A DNA stretch of 48,887 bases, taken from NCBI GenBank assembly GCA_014237145.1, contig JAAXOC010000095.1, positions 1 to 48,887 of the forward strand. The letters are read 5' to 3'. The notes under the pieces are model-generated. The model saw nothing but the letters and a program-made list of their open reading frames with translations. It did not search any database and had not been told where the DNA came from. A program made the position numbers and the translations under genes. Source of the stretch: ANME-2 cluster archaeon. Its GTDB lineage: Archaea; Halobacteriota; Methanosarcinia; Methanosarcinales; Methanocomedenaceae. Positions 5,632 to 37,243 of the stretch are shown here, in pieces; position 1 is the stretch's first letter, and each line of letters begins with the position of its first letter.

Positions 5632-8600
5632 TTATTTGCCAGTGAAGGTAAAGGCTGCCCAATAATATGGATTGGTATAGGGCTTATCACTGGGATCTCC
5701 ACCCATAACAAGCTCACGGTATGCTTCATTCTGGCTCATTCTGGCAATGGATTTATATGTCTCACCCAATTCTTGTCGTGATGCGTCGCGCAACCACAAT
5801 TGAGCTGAGCGCAATGCCTGATCAGGCGGCAGGCCTTCATTCAGATGTTTGCGATAAAAGTGCTTTATCAGCAAGCTGGTGGCTGCATCGTCAACAGCCC
5901 ACAGGGTACTTGCCACACCAGTAGCACCTGCCTGGAGAAATCCGGTTGGAAGCCCTATGAATTCGTCGGGTGATTGCTGGATATCAGTCATGCCGGTCTC
6001 GCAGGCTGAAAGGATCACAAGCCGCGCTGTGTCAAGGTTAAGGCCCGAAATGATTTCAGACAGGGTCAGGATGTTATTGTTTGCCATCACCAATCCAGAA
6101 TTCATCACATCCTGCCAGTTGTAAAGACCGTGACATGAAAAATGTAAATATGTCCATCCAGGAATCCTTTCTGTAACCTCTTTTTTTGTAGCTTCATTCC
6201 CTGACAGCGTCTTCCGGTGGTCAGGGTCGAACAGGGACTCTACGGCCATGCCCTCTACCGGGGTATAACGTAGATCCTCTGTCGGGTTGATCACTGCCAA
6301 AAGCGAGGCCTTTTGTCGGGTTGTGTCCTGCATGCGCTCGCTGCTTATGCTAAGGGAGTAGGCACTGGGAGCATAACTCATCGAGTAGTCGTCGATGAAG
6401 GCGCGTCTATCTCCATCCACATCTCGCCATGCTGCATGCAGAGGCAACAGCCCCAGATATCCCTGTGGCATCAGGATAACCGGCGCCCCTTCAGCCAGAT
6501 TTAGACTCAGCAGTTTATGGTGAATCGGTTCCATCAGCATAGTCCAGAGCTGGCTTGTGGATTTCTCGATGACATCCAGCCATTGCTCCATGGCAGCTTC
6601 TGTCCCCTCATCGCAGAAGGCAAAATACGCGCCCATCCAGCCGCCCCATTCTTTATCGTCAGCAGGTCCTTGCAGCAGTTTGAGCAGTTCATCTTCGTAG
6701 AGAGAATCCAGCATGACCACGTGATTGGTTTCGACCGAATCTACCCCGTGAGGTATTACAATGACTGCGCTCCCCTTTGAGGTTACGAGCGGCACGACCA
6801 GCGCTCCACCCTCAGGTATAAGTCCCAGAATGCCGGGCAGATCAAGACCTGTGGGCATGAAATCAGGATGCTGTGAGCGCAGATTCTCAACAAGTTTATT
6901 CAGCTCGATACGCTTCTGGCGAAGCAGCTCACCAAGTTCAATGTCGGTACAACGGGCCGGCACATCAGAAGGAAGACGCATCTCGGCTTCCAGCATACGT
7001 ACTGCTTCACGCGCTTCTGACATGGCCTGCCTCTGCGTTTTAGAGAGCATATCCAGGTCGGCATCAGCTAGGGCCAGTGCTTCTGTGAGAAGACGTGTCT
7101 TCCCCTCTTCCAGCCGAAGAACCGCTTTCTTGATCAGCTTCAGTTTCAACAAACAGTACGCTGAACACGCATACAGTCTGGATGTCACACCAACCTCTGC
7201 CTTGCGGCCGATTTCGGTATGCGCCTCTGCCAGAATCGCATTGCCGGCTTCAATCGCACCATCATAATCTGCTAGTGAATTCTTCCAACTCATCTCAGTA
7301 AAGTGCAAATTGCCCAGATTGTGGAGTGTTTGTCGACAATAAGCAGGAAATCGCTCGATAGTCATGACTTTAAGTGCCTGATTGTAGTGGTCGATCGCAA
7401 TATCAATATTTTCGGCCGGTTCCCCCAGTATACGGTCACTGTAGGCAAGAGCCAGGTTGTTCTGGGTTATGGCCCACTTCTCAGGGAATGTCTCGCGTGT
7501 ATAGATTTTCAATGACTGATTGCAGTGGTCAATGGCAAGGTCAATATTTTCGGTACACTCGCCTCGTATGCGGTTACGGTAGGCGAGAGCCAGGTTATTC
7601 TGGGTCATGGCCCAGTCCACCGGGAATGCCTCGCATGTATAGACTTCTAGTGCCTGATTGAAGTGGTCGATGGCAAGTTCAATATTTTCGGCACGCTCGC
7701 CGCGAATATGGTTCCAATAGGTGAGAGCTATGTTGTTCTGGACCGCGGCCCACTTCTCAGGAAATGCTTGGTGTGTATAGACTTCCAGTGCCCGATTGTA
7801 GTGGTCGATGGCAATGTCAAGGTTCTCGACACGCTCCCCACGAATGCGGTTATTGTAGGCGTTCGCCAAGTTGTTCTGGGTCATGGCCCAGTCCTCAGGG
7901 AATGCCCTGCGCGTCCTGACTTCCAGTGCTTTGTTGTAGTGGTCGATGGCAAGGTCAATGTTCTCAGCTCGATCCCCATGGAGGCGATTCCAATAGGAAG
8001 CAGCCAGATTGTTCTGGATCATGCCCCACTGCTCAGGGAATGCCTCGCGTGTATGGACTTCCAGTGCCTGGTTGTAGTGGTCGATGGCACAGTCAAGGTT
8101 CTCGGCCCGATTACCATGGATACAACTCCAGTAGGCGATGGCCAGGTTGTTCTGGGTCATGGCCCAGTCCTCAGAAAATGCCTCGCGTGTATAGACTTCC
8201 AGTGCCCGATTGCAGTAGTCAATGGCACGCTCAATGTTTTTGGCACGCTCCCCAATGATGCGGTTATTATAGGCATTCGCCAGGTTGTTCTGGATCTCGG
8301 CCCACTGCTCTGGAAAAGCCTCATGTGTAAAGACTTCCAGTGCCTGATTGTAGTGGTAGATTGAAAGTTCAAGGTTCTCGGCGCGGGGACCAAGCGGGTT
8401 TAGAGCAAAGCTATTGCTAAGCTCTATCTGCAGATCGGCCCACAGTTCTGGTTGCGCGTTACGGTTCACCAGCCTGAGCGCACTTTGACACAACTCTACG
8501 CGACGCGGCATATCGGACGGACGATTCAAGCTCTGCAATTCTCGATGCAATGCAGAAAACTCGCCTGGACTGGAAACATTAGTAGAGCTCCCTGTCTGGA

Positions 8601-8862
8601 GATGGTCGGCAAAAGCAGCATCAATCCCCTCGCTCTGGCATCGGAGAAGCAGCGAACGGTGATTCTCAAGGAGGCGTATTGCATTTTCGTCATCCTTGTA
8701 TTGCATTAACAGGACTTCAAAGACCTGGACGGCGGCAGGTGTCAGCAGATCGTCCTGATGTGCCTGCACGATCGCTTTGCTCTTGGCCCATGTCTCTGCA
8801 TTTATGAAGGATAGAACGGTATTGACAATGCTTTCCTCATTGAAATGATTCTGATCACTCAT
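5632..8862 (-). CDS. TPR-CHAT caspase-like protease
   Basis: This 1076-residue protein has a helical N-terminus (1-150), a tetratricopeptide array (about 155-530), a long helical linker (about 540-700) and a C-terminal CHAT domain (about 790-1074). CHAT is a clan CD, caspase-like peptidase fold. The catalytic dyad is visible: His911 in YLHFSCHGLY and Cys954 in VILSACETGM. Further conserved CHAT blocks are FIGLPTGFLQAGATGV and ASTLWAVDDAATSLLIKHFY. There is no signal peptide, so it should act in the cytoplasm. TPR-CHAT proteins take part in prokaryotic immunity and regulated cell death, in which the TPR array senses a partner. The start ATG at 8862 has a purine-rich stretch (gggagagat) upstream. 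It is transcribed with the downstream partner gene at 4795-5616. Confidence 0.93.
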   Translation of the reverse strand: MSDQNHFNEESIVNTVLSFINAETWAKSKAIVQAHQDDLLTPAAVQVFEVLLMQYKDDENAIRLLENHRSLLLRCQSEGIDAAFADHLQTGSSTNVSSPGEFSALHRELQSLNRPSDMPRRVELCQSALRLVNRNAQPELWADLQIELSNSFALNPLGPRAENLELSIYHYNQALEVFTHEAFPEQWAEIQNNLANAYNNRIIGERAKNIERAIDYCNRALEVYTREAFSEDWAMTQNNLAIAYWSCIHGNRAENLDCAIDHYNQALEVHTREAFPEQWGMIQNNLAASYWNRLHGDRAENIDLAIDHYNKALEVRTRRAFPEDWAMTQNNLANAYNNRIRGERVENLDIAIDHYNRALEVYTHQAFPEKWAAVQNNIALTYWNHIRGERAENIELAIDHFNQALEVYTCEAFPVDWAMTQNNLALAYRNRIRGECTENIDLAIDHCNQSLKIYTRETFPEKWAITQNNLALAYSDRILGEPAENIDIAIDHYNQALKVMTIERFPAYCRQTLHNLGNLHFTEMSWKNSLADYDGAIEAGNAILAEAHTEIGRKAEVGVTSRLYACSAYCLLKLKLIKKAVLRLEEGKTRLLTEALALADADLDMLSKTQRQAMSEAREAVRMLEAEMRLPSDVPARCTDIELGELLRQKRIELNKLVENLRSQHPDFMPTGLDLPGILGLIPEGGALVVPLVTSKGSAVIVIPHGVDSVETNHVVMLDSLYEDELLKLLQGPADDKEWGGWMGAYFAFCDEGTEAAMEQWLDVIEKSTSQLWTMLMEPIHHKLLSLNLAEGAPVILMPQGYLGLLPLHAAWRDVDGDRRAFIDDYSMSYAPSAYSLSISSERMQDTTRQKASLLAVINPTEDLRYTPVEGMAVESLFDPDHRKTLSGNEATKKEVTERIPGWTYLHFSCHGLYNWQDVMNSGLVMANNNILTLSEIISGLNLDTARLVILSACETGMTDIQQSPDEFIGLPTGFLQAGATGVASTLWAVDDAATSLLIKHFYRKHLNEGLPPDQALRSAQLWLRDASRQELGETYKSIARMSQNEAYRELVMGGDPSDKPYTNPYYWAAFTFTGK
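7290..8400 (-). repeat. Eight tandem 138-bp TPR-coding repeats
   Basis: Within the CHAT gene, a 46-codon unit is repeated about eight times. The consensus reads AENIDLAIDHYNQALEVYTR followed by EAFPEQWAMTQNNLANAY and a short linker. Spacing measured between successive copies of the AIDHYN codons is 138 bp. DNA identity between units is high enough to be seen by eye, which suggests recent expansion or gene conversion. The 46-residue period is longer than the canonical 34-residue TPR. Confidence 0.85.
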
Positions 8863-18386: not shown

Positions 18387-19274
18387 ATGAATATTCTTGT
18401 TACAGGCGGCGCAGGTTTCATCGGCTCGCACATTGCCGGGTATTTCGCATCTGCCGGGCACAATGTGACCATTCTTGACAACCTCTCGACAGGCTACTCA
18501 CGCAACATCCCAAAGAGCAACAACACCACCTTCATCGAGGGTGATATCTGCGCCCAGGCTACAGTTACCAAAGCGGCGAAGGGTGCAGATTATGTGTTTC
18601 ACCATGCTGCGCTTGTCTCTGTACCGCTTAGCTGCCAGAAGCCTGCGGATGCATTTAACATCAACACCCTGGGCACGCTGAATGTACTGCAAGCTTCCCT
18701 TGATGCGGGTGCTATGAAGGTGATCATTGCCTCATCCGCTGCAGTCTACGGGAACAATCCAATCCTTCCTAAACGCGAGGATATGCTTCCAGAGCCTGCT
18801 TCACCGTATGCCATATCAAAGCTTGATTGTGAGTACCTGGCGCACATGTTCTACATTAACCACGGCCTTCGCACCACATGCTTGCGCTATTTCAATGTTT
18901 ATGGTCCGCGCCAGGATCCAAACTCGGCGTATGCGGCAGCCATCCCGATATTCCTTTCCCGCGCCCGGGCATGTGAAGACCTTTTGATATACGGTGATGG
19001 CGGGCAAACGCGGGACTTTGTGCATGTGCTGGATGTTGTGCGCGCAAATGTGGCTGCCATGGAACATGGGGATGGCGGGGTGTTCAATGTAGCTACTGGT
19101 ACTAGTGTTACAATCCGGGAGCTTGCTGAGATGATCGTGGATATCACCGGGACCAGGGTTGATATTGTGCATGAGGATAAGAGGGTAGGAGATGTGCGGG
19201 ATTCGAGGGCTGATGTGGGGAAGATCGCTGGATGGTGGAGAAGTGAGATCGAACTTTTAGAGGGGTTGAAATAA
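18387..19274 (+). CDS. NAD-dependent sugar-nucleotide epimerase/dehydratase (extended SDR)
   Basis: This belongs to the UDP-glucose/UDP-GlcNAc 4-epimerase-like extended SDR family. The Rossmann motif TGGAGFIGSH is at residues 6-15. The catalytic set is SSAAVYG (Ser near 117), Tyr141 and Lys145 in PYAISK. The substrate-binding RYFNVYGPRQDP motif and GDGGQTRDFVHVLDVVRA are typical of UDP-GlcNAc/UDP-Glc epimerases that supply sugars for glycoprotein glycans. At 295 residues the protein ends soon after SEIELLEGLK, about 10-15 residues shorter than many relatives, which could be natural. RBS aaggtgg precedes the ATG. It is convergent with VanZ. Confidence 0.9.
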   Translation: MNILVTGGAGFIGSHIAGYFASAGHNVTILDNLSTGYSRNIPKSNNTTFIEGDICAQATVTKAAKGADYVFHHAALVSVPLSCQKPADAFNINTLGTLNVLQASLDAGAMKVIIASSAAVYGNNPILPKREDMLPEPASPYAISKLDCEYLAHMFYINHGLRTTCLRYFNVYGPRQDPNSAYAAAIPIFLSRARACEDLLIYGDGGQTRDFVHVLDVVRANVAAMEHGDGGVFNVATGTSVTIRELAEMIVDITGTRVDIVHEDKRVGDVRDSRADVGKIAGWWRSEIELLEGLK

Positions 19275-21985: not shown

Positions 21986-22975
21986 TTGCAGATTTTCGAC
22001 ACACTGAGTCAACCCATCTACCAGCAGTTCATCACAATCGAAATACTGTGCGTACTCTTGCTTCCACTATTCGGCGTTGCCATTTCAGTGCCCTACTTCA
22101 TAAGAAAACTCACAGAAAAAGGCATGGTAGTCAAGGACTACTACAAACCCGGCAAAAATATGGTGCCCACTGGCGGCGGGATAGCCATCCTCCTCGTAGC
22201 CATGCTTGCCCTGTCACTCAACTCCCTGTTTTTCGAGTTCACACCTACGAATTATGTGGCGCTTATTGTGATCTCCATGTTTGGCCTGTTCGGTGTGCTG
22301 GACGATATGATCGACATTGGCCGTACATCAAAGCTCCTATTAATGTATTATTGCTCCTACCCCCTGATTCAATATGCAACCCACACAGCCATTATATTCC
22401 CGGCTATCGGGTCAGTGGAACTGGGAATATTCTATCTTCAATTTATTGTGCCCACGTATGTCCTGGTTGCTTCAAACCTGGTGAACATGCATTCAGGATA
22501 TAATGGTATGGCCTCCGGTCTGTCGACTATTGTCCTGATCTCATTGATCATCAAGAGCTTTATGGTTGAGAATGTGGAGAATATTTTTTCAGTGGTTAGC
22601 ATTACCGGCGCAACCCTGGGCTTTTATCTATATGAACGATATCCTTCCAGGATATTCTGGGGCAATATAGGTTCGTTGACCGTGGGCTCGGCCATTGGGG
22701 TTATTATTGTGATCCAAGGTTTTATTGTGAGCGGCTTTATCATGCTGATCCCCCATACTGTCAATTTCCTGATGTATGTGTACTGGAGGGTGAGGAAATA
22801 TCCAGTTGCGAAGTTTGGTAGGCCCAGGGCAGATGGAAGCCTTGAGGTGCCCAATGCTTTAACGCTTAAGTGGGTATTGCCGTATTATATGAGGGTTACT
22901 GAGAAGCAGGGCACATGGGCTATGTTTGTTGTGACAGGGGTGTTTTGTACGATAGGGATATTTGTACCGTGGTGA
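21986..22975 (+). CDS. Glycosyltransferase family 4: dolichyl-phosphate GlcNAc-1-P transferase-like
   Basis: This 329-residue polytopic membrane enzyme of the MraY/WecA/GPT superfamily transfers a sugar-1-phosphate from a UDP-sugar to a polyprenyl phosphate, the first step of lipid-linked oligosaccharide assembly. The signatures are GKNMVPTGGGIAILL (substrate loop), GLFGVLDDMIDIG (the DD-x-x-D metal-binding block), NLVNMHSGYNGMASGL (NxxN...GxNG) and a cytoplasmic loop ending GRPRADGSLEVPNALTLKW with the late acidic/His-type substrate region. About ten helices are visible. Translation starts at TTG 21986 with aggggat upstream. The archaeal counterpart is AglH-like; the exact sugar is not determined. 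Both flanking genes are PEF-CTERM proteins, the likely glycosylation targets. Confidence 0.9.
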   Translation: MQIFDTLSQPIYQQFITIEILCVLLLPLFGVAISVPYFIRKLTEKGMVVKDYYKPGKNMVPTGGGIAILLVAMLALSLNSLFFEFTPTNYVALIVISMFGLFGVLDDMIDIGRTSKLLLMYYCSYPLIQYATHTAIIFPAIGSVELGIFYLQFIVPTYVLVASNLVNMHSGYNGMASGLSTIVLISLIIKSFMVENVENIFSVVSITGATLGFYLYERYPSRIFWGNIGSLTVGSAIGVIIVIQGFIVSGFIMLIPHTVNFLMYVYWRVRKYPVAKFGRPRADGSLEVPNALTLKWVLPYYMRVTEKQGTWAMFVVTGVFCTIGIFVPW

Positions 22976-24504: not shown

Positions 24505-25017
24505 ATGACAATGCTCTCAAAACAAGAACTTACAGCAGCACTTAACACTAAACCGCCCCTGGTGGAACAAATGATAGACCCCGCCGTCCAGACCCAGCCC
24601 AACGGTGTTGAAATGACCCTGCAAAGTGTCCTCAGCCTGCAAGGCCCGGGCTCGGTAGCCTTTGACAACAGCGAGCGGCAGTTGCCGGATACAGAACCTC
24701 TGGAATTCGACGGCGACGGTTGGCTGCACCTTGAACTTGGCATATACAAGATCATCTACAACGAAGTAGTGAACATACCCGATGGCCTGGCCGCCATTGC
24801 CAGGGCCCGCTCAAGCCTGCTACGCTGCGGTGTAGCGCTTGAGACAGCTGTGTGGGATGCGGGTTACAGCGGGCGCAGTGAGAGTCTGCTTGTGGTGCAC
24901 AACCCTGCGGGTTTCAGGCTAAAGCGAAATGCCAGGGTCGTACAGCTGATCTTTTTCAGGCTTAGTAGTGATGTCAGCGAAGGCTACAGCGGCATATACC
25001 AGAATGAAAACAAATAA
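24505..25017 (+). CDS. dut: dUTP diphosphatase / dCTP-deaminase-like nucleotidohydrolase
   Basis: This 170-residue trimeric dUTPase-superfamily enzyme hydrolyses dUTP to dUMP and diphosphate, keeping uracil out of DNA. The conserved motifs are AIARARSSLLRCGVALET (uracil/phosphate-binding loop with Arg-Ser-Ser) and AVWDAGYSGRSESLLVVHNP (catalytic Asp and Gly-Tyr block). The archaeal dUTPase group of this length has the same layout and lacks the deaminase Glu context of dCTP deaminase. The first Met (24505) starts MTMLSKQELTAALNTKP; the second Met two codons later is an alternative. Confidence 0.88.
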   Translation: MTMLSKQELTAALNTKPPLVEQMIDPAVQTQPNGVEMTLQSVLSLQGPGSVAFDNSERQLPDTEPLEFDGDGWLHLELGIYKIIYNEVVNIPDGLAAIARARSSLLRCGVALETAVWDAGYSGRSESLLVVHNPAGFRLKRNARVVQLIFFRLSSDVSEGYSGIYQNENK

Positions 25018-26707: not shown

Positions 26708-27682
26708 TTACCACACAAAGGCAACATCTTTCATTTCACTGTTGCCTGACAGGTCTTTCAGGATGGCCAGTACTTCCTCTGTTGTGATATCCCCAACCTT
26801 CATGCTCATGCGGATAACCTGCTCAACCTCTACCTGGCCTGTATGTCCAAGGAGCCTGACAATACGCCGCACAGTATTCTTCTGCCACTCATATTCCCTT
26901 GTCTGGAAGGTTCTTATGGAACGTAGGAAATCTATCTTCCTGAACTCGGGCCAGTAGGGTGCACAGAAATAGGCGGCACATTCATTGCCGTTGGCCTGCC
27001 AGGGCAGGAAATTTGACATCCTCTCATCGCCACCGGTCCTGATGATCAGGTCAACATCAGGGACTGCCAGGCTGGTGGAGGGATACAGATGGGATGAGAT
27101 GATCTCCTCATCAATATCAGACACCTCAAGCTGGCCGCTTTTTACCTTTTGGGCTAGCACTCTTGCAGTATCCACGATCTCCTGGCGGCCTCCATAGGCC
27201 ATGGCAATGTTCAGGTACATACTATCGTAATTCCTTGTGATGGTCTCGGCCTGCCTTGCTGTTTCCCTTAATCCGGCAGGTAACAGGTCAATATTTCCCA
27301 GTATCCTGACCCGCATCCTTCGCTCATGGGTACGCTCATCCTGCATTAGTTTCTCAAGCTTGAGACCTATAAGTTCGAAGAGTTTCTGCTTTTCCTTATC
27401 TGAGCGGTTCTGGTTCTCTGTGGAAAAGGCATAGACTGTTATTTGTTTCACACCCAGTTCATAGCACCAGTCAAGGACGTTTTCTGTTGTGTTTGCACCC
27501 AGGTTGTGCCCCTGCCAGACGGTCATACCCAGCTTTCTGGCATACCTGCGGTTCCCGTCCATGATTATAGCTATATGTCCGGGAACCCTGAACTCTTTTA
27601 TTTCCTTGGTGAGCAGGTATTCATACCCGGAATAAAGAACTGTATCAAGTGTTTTTTTTAATGTAACAAGACCATTATCCAT
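26708..27682 (-). CDS. uppS: cis-Prenyltransferase (polyprenyl diphosphate synthase)
   Basis: This 324-residue member of the UPP synthase family condenses isopentenyl diphosphate units in cis to make the long glycan-carrier polyprenol. The catalytic Asp42 is in HIAIIMDGNRRYAR, and NIAMAYGGRQEIVDT, DVDLIIRTGGDERMSNFLPW and YFCAPYWPEFRKIDFLRSIR give the remaining substrate-binding blocks. It is longer than bacterial UppS (about 250 residues): an N-terminal extension (1-33) and a C-terminal 40-residue tail (about 285-324) are extra. A second homologue without the catalytic Asp lies at 34940-35605, so the active enzyme may be a heteromer. Confidence 0.93.
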   Translation of the reverse strand: MDNGLVTLKKTLDTVLYSGYEYLLTKEIKEFRVPGHIAIIMDGNRRYARKLGMTVWQGHNLGANTTENVLDWCYELGVKQITVYAFSTENQNRSDKEKQKLFELIGLKLEKLMQDERTHERRMRVRILGNIDLLPAGLRETARQAETITRNYDSMYLNIAMAYGGRQEIVDTARVLAQKVKSGQLEVSDIDEEIISSHLYPSTSLAVPDVDLIIRTGGDERMSNFLPWQANGNECAAYFCAPYWPEFRKIDFLRSIRTFQTREYEWQKNTVRRIVRLLGHTGQVEVEQVIRMSMKVGDITTEEVLAILKDLSGNSEMKDVAFVW

Positions 27683-27874: not shown

Positions 27875-28435
27875 ATGAAACACGAGCTGGTAGTGGGCAT
27901 ATCAGGTGCATCCGGTGTCATATACGGCATACGGCTGCTTGAGGTGCTAAGAGAAAATACAGATATTACAGTCCACCTGGTAGTGTCTGAATCTGCAAAG
28001 CAGATAATCGGTATTGAGACTGATTATTCAATTACCGATGTGGAGGCCATGGCAGACCACTTATGGAATGAGCAGGACTTCACCGCACCAATTGCCAGCG
28101 GTTCACATAAGACCGCCGGAATGGTAGTGGTTCCATGCAGTATGAAGACCCTTGCAGGAATTGCAAATGGTTTCTCTGATACACTAATTGGACGCTCAGC
28201 CGATATCTGCCTGAAAGAGGACCGCAGGCTTGTGCTTGTTCCCAGGGAGACGCCGCTGAGCCTGATAGACCTTGAGAATATGGTGAAGGTCAGGCGGGCT
28301 GGTGCTGCGGTGCTTCCTGCATGTCCGGGGCTGTATCCAAAACCACAGTCCGTGGATGAGATGATTGATTTTATTGTGGGCAGGGTACTTGACCTATTGG
28401 ATATAGAGCATGGGTTATACCGCAGGTGGGAATGA
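27875..28435 (+). CDS. ubiX: UbiX-family flavin prenyltransferase
   Basis: This 186-residue flavoprotein makes prenylated FMN from FMN and dimethylallyl phosphate, for use by UbiD-type decarboxylases. The motifs are VVGISGASGVIYGIRLLEVL (FMN-binding Gly-rich loop), APIASGSHKTAGMVVVPCSM (Ser-rich active-site loop) and RRLVLVPRETPLSLIDLENM (the conserved VPRETPL block). The length is normal. It is divergent from uppS across a 192-bp spacer. No ubiD is in the window. Confidence 0.95.
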   Translation: MKHELVVGISGASGVIYGIRLLEVLRENTDITVHLVVSESAKQIIGIETDYSITDVEAMADHLWNEQDFTAPIASGSHKTAGMVVVPCSMKTLAGIANGFSDTLIGRSADICLKEDRRLVLVPRETPLSLIDLENMVKVRRAGAAVLPACPGLYPKPQSVDEMIDFIVGRVLDLLDIEHGLYRRWE

Positions 28436-33502: not shown

Positions 33503-34615
33503 ATGCTCCCTTCAAAGGTAAAGGACTGGATGGTAGCTGGTTTATGGGAAGATATGGACCAGGCCATCTACTCAGTTAACAAGTTAAAACTGTTAAACGG
33601 AGCCTACTGGTTCTGGCTCATGTCAGATTATGAACAAAACAACCCCAGAATGCTTCAGGTACTTATCAGCCACGGGGCTTTTGATTATAAACTGAACGAT
33701 AAACATTTCATCAATAATCAATCCAGTTATGAAAAATTTACATGCTATTGCGGCATCTGGGAATATAGGGACGGTAAGGTATCAGACCTGGTCCATGACA
33801 GTTGTGACTGCACTGTAACCCCGGGCCAATTCCTGTGTGTTACCGAATCAGGGTATGAAATCTCAATCACCAACTCATTCCCGACTTATGACATGATAGT
33901 CACGAACAGGGATTCTGTAGTTACAAAGTTCAGTTCGGTCTCCTCGAAATTCAATGGAGGATATATACAAAATCCACTGGTCAGTTATCCGTCCGGAATA
34001 GCCTACAGTGAGGATTTCGATGCCTATGCCCGCAACAGCAGGGGGTTTCAGTATTTCGTTGCAAGTAAGATGAGCGACCTGTTCGCAACATGTGAGGGGG
34101 AATTATTCGGACGGGACTTCCAGGGCAGTTTCTGGCTGGAAAGGTCCCTGGGTTTTGGTTCCACGCTGCCGTGGAAGATCGTCATGGTCAATTTCAGCGA
34201 TAAATCCAGGTTATGGTACCGTTATTTCCCCTCTAAAATCCTTAATTACGGGTCGCCCCTCGAGTTCATTTTCGATGATATGGTCACTAAAAGGCGCTAC
34301 CATTTCAGTGAAATGAAGTTTGAGTATACAGGCAGCAACCATGGACCCACAATGAAATTCGGTCCGGGTGTGGATACCATACATTTATCAGCCTCAGGGG
34401 ATCAGGGTGAAAAAATACACCTTACTGCAAAGATACTGGACAGGCACCTATACAGGTACGATGTGGCCAGGATAAAGTTCAACTACAACCAGCTCGTGCT
34501 GGAAGTAGAGGATATTGAAGCAGTAGTGGACGGCACAGACCTGATGCAAGATAAGGAGCAAACATTGAGTTATGGTGAGGATGCCTATTTCAGCTTACAG
34601 GATGGCGTGGACTAG
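33503..34615 (+). CDS. Conserved protein of unknown function, possibly lipocalin-like
   Basis: This 370-residue protein has no signal peptide or clear membrane segment. It is rich in aromatic and beta-forming residues. The segment FQGSFWLERSLGFGSTLPWK and IVMVNFSDKSRLWYRYFPSK recalls the two-lipocalin-domain CrtC/AttH-type hydratases; this is only a weak likeness. It lies between the IS remnant and the second cis-prenyltransferase. Its stop codon (34613-34615) falls inside the left terminal inverted repeat of a small mobile element, so the original C-terminus may have been altered by insertion. Confidence 0.65.
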   Translation: MLPSKVKDWMVAGLWEDMDQAIYSVNKLKLLNGAYWFWLMSDYEQNNPRMLQVLISHGAFDYKLNDKHFINNQSSYEKFTCYCGIWEYRDGKVSDLVHDSCDCTVTPGQFLCVTESGYEISITNSFPTYDMIVTNRDSVVTKFSSVSSKFNGGYIQNPLVSYPSGIAYSEDFDAYARNSRGFQYFVASKMSDLFATCEGELFGRDFQGSFWLERSLGFGSTLPWKIVMVNFSDKSRLWYRYFPSKILNYGSPLEFIFDDMVTKRRYHFSEMKFEYTGSNHGPTMKFGPGVDTIHLSASGDQGEKIHLTAKILDRHLYRYDVARIKFNYNQLVLEVEDIEAVVDGTDLMQDKEQTLSYGEDAYFSLQDGVD

Positions 34616-34889
34616 TGTCAAGTCAACCATACAATATCGCTAGATATATTATCTGACACTGTTTCATTTCCCAGTTATTTTTAAGACGCAGATTTACACT
34701 GATTTACGCAGATTTAAGGTTGCATCTGCGTAACCTGCACGCCCTTAAGGCGTAGCAGGCATTCACTTCCCGCGGAAGTGAATGTATCAGTGTAAATCTG
34801 CGTCTAATATTATTATTGAAATAATTTGATTTTAGAATTGTGCCCTATTCCCTTCATAATCTGACACTTTGATGTTGACTTGACACTAG
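34612..34889. mobile_element. MITE-like element with nested inverted repeats
   Basis: The ends are a perfect 16-bp inverted repeat: CTAGTGTCAAGTCAAC (34612-34627) and GTTGACTTGACACTAG (34874-34889). Inside is a second perfect 20-bp inverted pair, AGACGCAGATTTACACTGAT (34684-34703) and its complement at 34786-34805. Inside that is a hairpin ATTCACTTCC-CGC-GGAAGTGAAT (34761-34783). There is no coding sequence. Part of its right side (34834-34887) recurs, diverged, at 45189-45240, so it is a dispersed family. Confidence 0.75.
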
Positions 34890-34939: not shown

Positions 34940-35605
34940 TTATTTCCCGAATCTGCGCTGGCGTTTCTGGTAATCCCTTAGAGCACGCAGGAAATCCAGT
35001 TTTCTTAAATTGACCCAGCTAACATCAGTGAAATATATTTCTGAATACACTGACTGCCAGATCAGGAAATCAGCCAGGCGTTTCCCTCCTGAACGTATCA
35101 CCAGGTCAGGTTCATACTTGATAAGCAAGTGTTGTTCAATGGCAGACCCGTCAATATCCCCTGGTTTCAGCCTACCCTCCCTAACCTCGGACATTATCTC
35201 CCTGAATGCTTCTGTTAGTTCTTTTTTGCCGCCATATCCCAGGGATATGTTGATCTGTATCCTTGAGGTTTCACCTTTCCTGAGATTTTTAATCTTCCCG
35301 TCAAAAGACAGCAGGTCAATCCCAGCATCAACCTCCAGCAATGTATCAGTTAAACATGTTACCAGCTCATTGTAAACCTGGCCCTTGATCGCGGTATCCA
35401 GGTCTATCAGGCTGACATAGATTGTGAGGATATTGATACCATATTCCCGGCACCATGTGATAAAGTCAAGTATCCTATCGGGAGAACCAGTCTCAAGTAG
35501 GTCACTTTCTGTAATGATAAGCACGATATGGGTGGGAAGTGAAGAAACATCCTTTCGTATAACCTTGTCAAGCTTTTGCTCATAGAGCCGGGAAAAGAAT
35601 TTCAT
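34940..35605 (-). CDS. Non-catalytic cis-prenyltransferase homologue (NgBR-like subunit)
   Basis: This 221-residue protein aligns along its length with UPP synthases: INISLGYGGKKELTEAFREI, YEPDLVIRSGGKRLADFLIW and FTDVSWVNLRKLDFLRALRD. The catalytic motif HIAIIMDGNRR is replaced by HIVLIITESDLL, so the essential Asp becomes Thr32. It ends in RQRRFGK, containing an R-x-G sequence like the C-terminal motif of the eukaryotic NgBR/Nus1 subunit. In eukaryotes, and as I recall in Methanosarcina, cis-prenyltransferases are heteromers of a catalytic and a non-catalytic subunit. The catalytic partner would be the protein at 26708-27682. It is divergent from the DUF92 gene. Confidence 0.85.
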   Translation of the reverse strand: MKFFSRLYEQKLDKVIRKDVSSLPTHIVLIITESDLLETGSPDRILDFITWCREYGINILTIYVSLIDLDTAIKGQVYNELVTCLTDTLLEVDAGIDLLSFDGKIKNLRKGETSRIQINISLGYGGKKELTEAFREIMSEVREGRLKPGDIDGSAIEQHLLIKYEPDLVIRSGGKRLADFLIWQSVYSEIYFTDVSWVNLRKLDFLRALRDYQKRQRRFGK

Positions 35606-35672
35606 TGTATATTAGTAATACCTGTAGGATAAATTATTTGCCTTGTGAGGTTGTCTGGAACCCTTGATATCA

Positions 35673-37040
35673 ATGTCTGTTGAAGTATGCAATGATGTGT
35701 CTTTCAAATACCTATTGCAATTCATACTGTTAGCTATACTGCTGCCCTTTTTCCCATTGATATACATTGTGGTTGCACTTATTCCCATTTTAGCTGTCCA
35801 TTTATTGAAGTCCAGGCAACACAGTGCTCTTCCGTCATCACTGTCCGGCATGTTACTGGGTGTAATTATTATGGGGTCCCTGGCCATTTTAATGGAGTAT
35901 TTAGGGTACGAATTTCCGCTGTATATCATAGGTGCTTCTATTTCTATCACCTGTGCCGGTAGTGCGGCAGCATGCGTAATCCGTACGAGGGGAGGTCGAA
36001 AACCTGAACTGGACGATAAGTTTATTTCAGCCACATCAAGTATCGGCCTTATTGTGATCGGTGCATTAACAGCATGTGTAATGGCATACTGGATCATTAG
36101 CTGGCTCAATGTTTACGTAACACTGAGCCAGTTGTTCTTCCTTGCGCTCATTGGTGCCGTGACAGGTGCACTGCTGGAATCCATCCCGTCCAGGACAGAT
36201 AAGAACCTGACAATGATACTGGGTTCGTTCATGATCATGTGGCTTTTTGCCGGTTTTGGGTATTATGTGAACTTTGACCACTTGTCGGCCATCTTCATAT
36301 TCTCATTATTTTTAGCATATCTGGCATACCGTTTTGATATTGCAGATGTGTCAGCTATGCTTTCGGCCACCTTGCTGGGTGTACTGATCATAGTTTTTAC
36401 CAACTTCAACTGGTACCTGATACTGATCACATTTTTCCTGTTGGGGGGGGCTTTTACCAGGTACGGATATGATTATAAGCAAATTATGGGGGTAGCACAG
36501 GACAAAGGGGGGGTCAGGAGCTATGAGAATGTACTTTGCAATTCTATTATTGCACTTATACTGGCCGTGGCCTATGGCATGTATCACGAGATTTATCCCC
36601 AGTTCGGTGCAGTGCTGATGTTCGCTTATCTTGGTGCAGTGGCAACGGCTACCGGGGACACTCTTGCAAGTGAGATAGGGGAGACATATCGGGGCAAACC
36701 TGTGATGATCACTAACTTCAAACCTGCCAGACCAGGGACCGACGGGGCGGTTTCCAGGCTGGGCGAACTGGTATGCATTGCCGGGTCTTTCATCATCGGT
36801 GTGCTGGCCCTGGTGTTGGGTGTGATAGACCTGCCTGCTTCAGGTCCTACTACCTATGTTTTCTGGATGTTGATCGTTATACTGGGCGGATTTTTGGGTA
36901 CTAATTTTGATAGCCTTCTGGGTGCTACTTTACAGCAAAGGGGCTGGCTCTCCAATAGTGGGGTGAATCTTGTAGCCACAATGGGTGGCGCCTTTATATC
37001 AGGAGCTGCTTATTATGTTCTGTCTGGGCATGTAGTGTAG
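35673..37040 (+). CDS. DUF92/TMEM19 family membrane protein (VTE6-like)
   Basis: This 455-residue polytopic protein has about eleven hydrophobic helices. The C-terminal 230 residues form the DUF92 domain: LLGGAFTRYGYDYKQIMGVA, ATATGDTLASEIGETYRGKP, ITNFKPARPGTDGAVSRLGE and LGGFLGTNFDSLLGATLQQR. The plant member VTE6 is a phytyl-phosphate kinase, so an isoprenoid-alcohol or -phosphate kinase role is a reasonable inference here, next to a cis-prenyltransferase subunit. The ATG at 35673 is preferred over the TTG three codons earlier. The last 15 bp overlap tRNA-Arg. Confidence 0.87.
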   Translation: MSVEVCNDVSFKYLLQFILLAILLPFFPLIYIVVALIPILAVHLLKSRQHSALPSSLSGMLLGVIIMGSLAILMEYLGYEFPLYIIGASISITCAGSAAACVIRTRGGRKPELDDKFISATSSIGLIVIGALTACVMAYWIISWLNVYVTLSQLFFLALIGAVTGALLESIPSRTDKNLTMILGSFMIMWLFAGFGYYVNFDHLSAIFIFSLFLAYLAYRFDIADVSAMLSATLLGVLIIVFTNFNWYLILITFFLLGGAFTRYGYDYKQIMGVAQDKGGVRSYENVLCNSIIALILAVAYGMYHEIYPQFGAVLMFAYLGAVATATGDTLASEIGETYRGKPVMITNFKPARPGTDGAVSRLGELVCIAGSFIIGVLALVLGVIDLPASGPTTYVFWMLIVILGGFLGTNFDSLLGATLQQRGWLSNSGVNLVATMGGAFISGAAYYVLSGHVV

Positions 37041-37097
37041 AGGATATCACTCAGGCCTCCGGAGCCTGGAACCTGGGTTCGACTCCCAGCATGCCCG
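37026..37097 (+). tRNA. tRNA-Arg (CCG)
   Basis: The 7-bp acceptor stem is GGGCATG/CATGCCC and the anticodon stem-loop is CAGGC-CTCCGGA-GCCTG, with anticodon CCG. The T arm is CTGGG-TTCGACT-CCCAG, with discriminator G and no encoded CCA. Its 5' end lies within the last codons (LSGHVV-stop) of the DUF92 gene, so gene and tRNA share 15 bp on the same strand. Confidence 0.92.
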
Positions 37098-37243
37098 CTT
37101 ACTCACCTGATAGTGCTTCCCCGATGTCAATGGGGGGGCTGGTTTTGATTCCGGGCATATACGCCCATTTACATCTAAAAAGTTCCACTTCAGGTTAAAT
37201 TTGAAAAAGAAAAAAAAGAACCCTTTGCAGGGACAGAGTTGTT

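Follow-up and report, generated by a model that had tools for sequence, protein, structure and literature searches.

The window analysed here is one contig, 48.9 kb long, of the 2.97-Mb draft genome of an ANME-2-type archaeon. It carries two homologues of cis-prenyltransferase and a gene for a membrane protein of the DUF92 family, the latter standing head to head with one of the two homologues. How archaea make and recycle phosphorylated polyprenol carriers for their surface glycans is incompletely known; for example, a figure in PMC5088576 sets question marks at unknown steps of carrier-polyprenol synthesis and recycling. The features that bear on this subject are listed below, where "helper" denotes the putative non-catalytic cis-prenyltransferase homologue.

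26708-27682, minus strand: putative catalytic cis-prenyltransferase subunit (P0001, 324 residues; PF01255), with DGNRR at 27545-27559 and without R-x-G at the aligned columns
34940-35605, minus strand: putative non-catalytic, NgBR-like cis-prenyltransferase subunit, the helper (P0002, 221 residues; PF01255, alignment to NUS1, motif columns)
34946-34954, minus strand: C-terminal R-x-G of the helper, R218-F-G220, invariant in 14 of 14 aligned rows
35498-35512, minus strand: degenerate region I of the helper, TESDL, residues 32-36, whose counterpart at the aligned columns of the catalytic protein is DGNRR
35606-35663, no strand: intergenic stretch between the head-to-head helper and DUF92 genes, presumably a shared promoter region
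35664-37040, plus strand: DUF92/VTE6-like integral membrane protein (P0003, up to 458 residues; PF01940, TIGR00297, predicted model)
35664-36287, plus strand: N-terminal half of P0003, corresponding to the Sec59-like half of Mbar_A3310; GDG motif absent (CAGS)
36288-37037, plus strand: C-terminal DUF92 half, with invariant D332-T333 and D416-S417 (PF01940; weak CdsA-like fold match)

The start codons of the helper and DUF92 genes lie 58 bp apart if P0003 begins at the TTG at 35664 (458 residues) and 67 bp apart if it begins at the ATG at 35673 (455 residues), and about 7.3 kb separate the helper gene from the catalytic one. A profile search of the whole genome at E ≤ 0.001 returned two PF01255 matches, namely these two genes. 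The closest named relatives of the DUF92 protein come from a Methanosarcinales metagenome-assembled genome (MAG; 97% identity) and an ANME-2 cluster archaeon (94%).

Complementary motifs in two cis-prenyltransferase homologues

P0001 matches PF01255 over residues 40-264 (E 6.8e-71), and P0002 matches the same profile with an alignment confined to its C-terminal residues 110-220 (E 9.1e-32). The catalytic Asp of P0001 is D42, within MDGNRR, and the helper has T32 there, within ITESDL; the helper ends in QRRFGK. A first-pass annotation of this DNA had described the 221-residue protein as lacking the catalytic Asp and ending in R-x-G, and had placed a catalytic homologue at 26.7 kb; the aligned columns bear out all of this.

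The division of motifs is that of the eukaryotic pairs DHDDS/NgBR and Rer2/Nus1, in which the catalytic chain lacks R-x-G and the helper lacks DGNRR, and the C-terminal R-x-G of the window's helper is as in NgBR. In the account given in PMC7573591, the R-x-G of human NgBR takes part in the active site of DHDDS, DHDDS residues D34, R37 and R38 bind Mg2+ or pyrophosphate with changes at these positions reducing activity, and yeast Nus1 is without R-x-G. Residues 19-221 of the helper align nearly end to end with human NUS1/NgBR chains in a search of solved structures (E 6.5e-8). There are also differences from NgBR: region V is largely retained in the helper, and hydropathy detects no transmembrane segment in it (maximum 19-residue Kyte-Doolittle mean 1.27), for which reason we call the helper NgBR-like rather than NgBR. 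By the same test, a crude one, an N-terminal anchor of the NgBR type is found in none of 14 helper rows (maximum mean ≤1.44).

How general is this division? For the motif comparison, sequences from loci of genomes sampled in the phylum were sorted by similarity to P0001 or P0002 and freed of duplicates. This left 66 distinct helpers, from 27 of the 29 families met (family f12, in which none was found, and f15 are unrepresented), and 52 distinct catalytic-type proteins, three of which are third paralogues. DGNRR is present in 52 of the 52 catalytic-type proteins and in none of the 66 helpers. Conversely, R-x-G occupies the aligned columns in 65 of the 66 helpers, the exception (L194) having K-F-G, and in none of the 52 catalytic-type proteins. 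The two groups are not distinguished by the Glu of the YSE motif, which is present in 66/66 helpers and 42/52 catalytic-type proteins. Six of the 66 helpers retain an Asp at the catalytic column, without GNRR, and this counts against a two-subunit enzyme.

Given the reciprocal split of DGNRR and R-x-G, the two genes appear to share one active site. The closest precedent is Methanosarcina mazei, in which MM_0618 and MM_1083 form a heteromeric cis-prenyltransferase with C45-50 products (PMC8131916, citing Emi et al. 2019); the first-pass annotation had pointed to such a case in Methanosarcina, correctly. There too a single archaeon has two cis-prenyltransferase paralogues, the heteromer being known from that organism whereas here it is predicted from the genes, and the cited account, as far as it was available to us, leaves unspecified which of MM_0618 and MM_1083 is the helper. 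Together with this precedent, the partition of motifs makes the heteromeric reading, with the helper and the catalytic protein as its two halves, well supported at the level of sequence. The heteromer itself is already in print for M. mazei, and what is new is that DGNRR and R-x-G divide reciprocally between the two types of protein throughout the genomes sampled. The recurrence of the split in every sampled family with a helper points to a two-part synthase as the general arrangement in the phylum, not a peculiarity of Methanosarcina.

A few further homologues were met along the way. Nine PF01255 rows scoring 137-155 bits, which are third paralogues or partial matches, were excluded from the list of catalytic genes used below; the three of these proteins that were read (in G060, G027 and G172) carry DGNRR. 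The third paralogue seen in L196, L197 and L198 keeps DGNRR and has ITLGG at the columns of the helper C-terminus; we take it to be perhaps of the MM_0014 kind. In G086 (family f22), a partial helper-like open reading frame (ORF) with R-x-G adjoins the catalytic gene on the opposite strand (L178), and it was left unassigned by the helper alignment search of that genome. Directly downstream of the window's helper gene, at 34612-34889, lies an element resembling a miniature inverted-repeat transposable element, with perfect terminal inverted repeats of 16 bp and an inner inverted pair of 20 bp; in the genome it has at least 56 matches, complete or partial (40 of 81 candidates were scored), and at least 10 copies, that of the window counted, are near full length at ≥95% identity.

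The helper-DUF92 gene pair across the phylum

Gene positions were compared in a phylum sample, 148 genomes drawn evenly, and in an order sample of 60 genomes (the window's own and 59 relatives). Here, "within 2 kb" refers to the distance between the edges of profile matches, and positions from PF01255 and the helper alignment in the phylum sample are those among the matches listed. DUF92 was found in 145 of the 148 phylum genomes. PF01255 had a match in 142, of which 137 could be assigned a helper (the exceptions being G068, G077, G086, G146 and G189) and 140 a catalytic gene (exceptions G095 and G180); both a helper and a DUF92 gene were located in 135 genomes.

Helper and DUF92 genes lie within 2 kb of each other in at least 67 of the 148 genomes, representing 13 families, and every one of these pairs is divergent, i.e. 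head to head; no close pair in another orientation was found among the matches listed for the 148 genomes. An additional divergent pair, 2.8 kb apart in G176, falls outside the 67. The helper and catalytic genes lie within 2 kb in at least 43 of the 148, always convergently, and in at least 32 both the DUF92 and the catalytic gene lie no more than 10 kb from the helper. Among the matches listed, the direct neighbour of DUF92 is more often the helper gene than the catalytic gene.

In the order sample, the divergent helper-DUF92 pair at less than 2 kb occurs in all genomes with both genes in three families (f1, 16/16; f3, 6/6; f5, 12/12), and helper and catalytic gene are convergent at less than 2 kb in 4/6 genomes of f3 and 10/12 of f5. 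A Methanoperedens contig of f5 (L059) has the full order catalytic gene, helper, DUF92, with 57 bp between the helper and DUF92 starts. In another locus (L048, 6595-8728), three ORFs stand between the helper and the catalytic gene, an apparent insertion into the triad; by eye, they are a DNA methyltransferase and restriction-like genes.

Several families weigh against a strict functional tie between the helper and DUF92. In the order sample the close pair is found in 0/11 genomes with both genes in f2 and 0/12 in f4, and in the phylum sample the two genes are apart in 18/18 such genomes of f4, the three genes being distant or on separate contigs, as well as in 17/17 of f10 and 2/2 of f20. In f24 the pair is close in only 4 of 10 genomes. 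DUF92 is unlinked in f8, f16, f19 and f25-f27, families in which the two synthase genes nonetheless lie close together, convergently, in 23 of 24 genomes. We take f4 to be Methanosarcinaceae because the DUF92 protein of L061 starts almost like that of Methanolobus vulcani (L091); if so, the family of M. mazei has its genes far apart or on other contigs, in contrast to the spacing in the window. Additionally, five f12 genomes (G065, G074, G083, G092 and G099) have DUF92 and no cis-prenyltransferase detectable by PF01255 or the helper alignment, and in two f28 genomes both synthase subunits are present and DUF92 was not detected; these seven genomes are drafts with a completeness of 75-91%.

The control neighbours were a UbiX-family flavin prenyltransferase gene (27875-28435), which adjoins the catalytic gene divergently, and a dUTPase gene (24505-25017), both sought in 24 genomes. 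UbiX stood at most 2 kb from one of the three genes at 1 of 16 places and dUTPase at 1 of 20, in both cases the window itself; helper and DUF92 were within 2 kb in 22 of the 24. The 24 genomes were picked mostly for having the pair, so that the result says no more than that other neighbours are not carried along. The places counted omit weak second matches (E above ~1e-7), i.e. nine UbiX rows, including the sole match of G064, and nine dUTPase rows, including the sole matches of G064, G106 and G134. A dUTPase gene 3.0 kb from the catalytic gene in G006, of the window's own family, and UbiX genes at 4.1 and 4.8 kb from it in the more distantly related G164 and G067 are taken as chance.

The pairing of helper and DUF92 is, then, conserved well above chance, and the linkage is old, retained in many lineages and non-obligatory. 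The link between the genes proposed in the first-pass annotation stands insofar as their neighbourhood is conserved, and it fails as a general rule, being absent from many families, the Methanosarcinaceae-like f4 included. A DUF92-uppS link has been in print since 2015: uppS was reported as the sole conserved gene context of archaeal DUF92, and a kinase step in isoprenoid biosynthesis was predicted (Makarova, Galperin and Koonin 2015; PMC5898192). That prediction shares with the present analysis the family (arCOG02245/COG1836/DUF92), the uppS context, the kinase proposal and a fused N-terminal half; it differs in that, in the parts of the account available to us, uppS stands for the synthase and no non-catalytic subunit is named. 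New here are the finding that the close neighbour of DUF92 is the non-catalytic subunit and stands in a single orientation, the families in which the two are separated, and the absence of a motif from the N-terminal half, to which we now turn.

A candidate prenyl-phosphate kinase beside the helper

What does the DUF92 protein do? The first-pass annotation had named the divergent neighbour a DUF92 protein, and P0003 indeed matches PF01940 over residues 213-442 (E 1.2e-66; 225.1 bits against a cut-off of 27.5), as well as TIGR00297 at 211.5 bits, slightly over its cut-off of 205.85. Archaeal DUF92 proteins, arCOG02245, have been tied to the cytidylyltransferase family in profile searches, with metal-binding Asp residues conserved, and in Mbar_A3310 the DUF92 part is fused to a Sec59-like N-terminal half (PMC5898192). 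In plants, the related VTE6, a member of COG1836 (PMC9782597), has been described as a phytyl-phosphate kinase (PMC10849223); the window's protein shares the family, has an extra N-terminal half, and has a kinase role only by prediction. The kinase or phosphate-salvage role put forward in the first-pass annotation draws on VTE6, on the 2015 prediction and on a weak CdsA-like fold match. Residues invariant across 48 rows of the C-terminal half include G283, R285, N289, D332, T333, E337, D416 and S417. The final 15 bases of the gene, stop codon included, are overlapped by a predicted tRNA-Arg (CCG) at 37026-37098.

The N-terminal half has no significant Pfam match, and a direct profile comparison of it with the C-terminal half gave nothing (probability ≤0.4%). 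In contrast to the proteins of the 2015 account, those of the window's family are without GDG here: 8 of 8 rows have CAGS, CAGG or TAGG, and P0003 itself has CAGS. FGDG is present in 17 of the 48 DUF92 rows, namely in Methanoperedens, another ANME-2 record and other Methanosarcinales MAGs, and its absence from the window's family is probably a loss. Since the N-terminal half is without the first Asp of GDG, only the C-terminal half is expected to be active in this organism. A bifunctional kinase, in which the half that looks Sec59-like by eye would be an active prenol kinase, was considered and rejected on the same ground. Taken together, the 48 DUF92 members match 15 families at E ≤ 1, and PF01148 is not one of them; the genome has one PF01148 match, below the cut-off, which from reading by eye we take to be the CDP-archaeol synthase.

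The reading that we favour, and hold to be moderately probable as a whole, is that of a heteromeric synthase with a VTE6-like kinase as its neighbour. A single cis-prenyltransferase would be formed from a non-catalytic subunit encoded at 34.9 kb and a catalytic one encoded at 26.7 kb. The catalytic chain would contribute the Asp/Arg active site (DGNRR), and the C-terminal R-x-G of the helper, by analogy with the human enzyme, would reach over the dimer interface and help to build the substrate sites. The enzyme would yield a polyprenyl diphosphate, presumably of the C45-50 type, serving as precursor of a glycosyl carrier lipid. The DUF92 protein, probably co-expressed with the helper, would be a membrane prenyl-phosphate kinase of the VTE6 type, most likely regenerating an allylic prenyl diphosphate, e.g. 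geranylgeranyl diphosphate from geranylgeranyl phosphate (GGP), rather than acting on the finished polyprenol. The regenerated allylic diphosphate would feed both priming of the cis-prenyltransferase and lipid synthesis. A kinase that acts before the synthase is favoured for two reasons: the synthase requires a primer of this kind, and f12 retains DUF92 with no synthase found. The five f12 genomes suggest that DUF92 acts on more than the cis-polyprenyl chain and probably serves some purpose unrelated to such chains. Against the favoured reading, the account of the M. mazei heteromer in PMC8131916 names no third component in the parts available to us.

The head-to-head DUF92 gene is a concrete candidate for a prenyl-phosphate kinase step in archaea. 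A GGP kinase activity was reportedly found in Sulfolobus acidocaldarius by Ohnuma et al. in 1996. PF01940 has no match in the S. acidocaldarius genome in a control profile search, so that this activity must have another source. No assay of an archaeal DUF92 protein was found in a literature search that covered few subscription journals.

A tentative alternative, for which there is something to be said, is that DUF92 is a general salvage kinase for GGP and farnesyl phosphate with no specific part in carrier-lipid synthesis, its position reflecting inherited gene order and a shared promoter. The precedent of VTE6 as a phytyl-phosphate kinase (PMC10849223), the retention of DUF92 in the five f12 genomes and its lack of linkage in many families all suit such a kinase; however, helper and DUF92 stay linked in 13 families in a single orientation, and UbiX and dUTPase are not linked in this way.

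That DUF92 instead acts on the carrier, converting polyprenyl (dolichyl) phosphate to the diphosphate or otherwise recycling the carrier, is rather unlikely. The genomes in which the helper lies within 10 kb of both other genes are consistent with it; nevertheless, the product of the synthase is already a diphosphate, which is then converted to the monophosphate carrier (PMC8131916 and general pathway knowledge), and f12 keeps the kinase candidate without a detected synthase.

An extension of the favoured reading, which we regard as unlikely, would make DUF92 a third, membrane-bound component that anchors the soluble two-subunit synthase through the helper and both makes and hands over the allylic diphosphate, such that synthesis, salvage and membrane delivery would occur in one complex. 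It is consistent with the lack of an NgBR-like anchor in the helper and with the helper, more than the catalytic gene, adjoining DUF92.

Weak fold matches count against the kinase reading and leave room for another idea, namely that DUF92 is a transporter or channel-like membrane protein outside the pathway. The predicted model is good (pLDDT 85.0, pTM 0.85), and neither the 458-residue model nor the 250-residue model of the C-terminal half has a Foldseek match at E ≤ 0.001. The top match of the whole model is CdsA (4q2g), a weak one (E 0.084, probability 0.96), and CdsA is third for the C-terminal half, also weakly (E 0.13). VIA-align superposes residues 223-457 of the whole model on CdsA with Z 6.8 (157 residues aligned, 4.1 Å) and the C-terminal half on CdsA 4q2e with Z 6.6 (147 residues, 3.9 Å), in both cases in a tie with TRIC channels, which lead the lists at Z up to 7.7 and 7.1, respectively. 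We nonetheless consider a channel very unlikely in view of the published similarity to the cytidylyltransferase family with its metal-binding Asp (PMC5898192), the VTE6 precedent and the invariant D-T and D-S motifs.

Lastly, it is highly improbable that the 34.9-kb gene encodes a short-chain synthase acting on its own, or a paralogue in decay, rather than a subunit: the top-scoring solved relative of its product, 2vfw (E 4.2e-24 over residues 44-215), is a mycobacterial short-chain Z-isoprenyl diphosphate synthase, a homodimer, and outscores NUS1, but DGNRR is absent from all 66 helpers, the catalytic protein correspondingly lacks R-x-G, and 50 of 222 columns, mostly in the C-terminal half, are invariant across 14 helper rows, which is not expected under decay.

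Other genes of the window

At 5632-8862 the window encodes a protein of 1076 residues, of which residues 791-1010 match the TPR-CHAT model of the type III-E CRISPR-associated protein Csx29 at 69.5 bits, well under the 300-bit cut-off. An MraY-like phospho-sugar transferase (21986-22975) and a GalE-like epimerase (18387-19274), both scoring below NCBIfam cut-offs, are plausible users of the carrier lipid.

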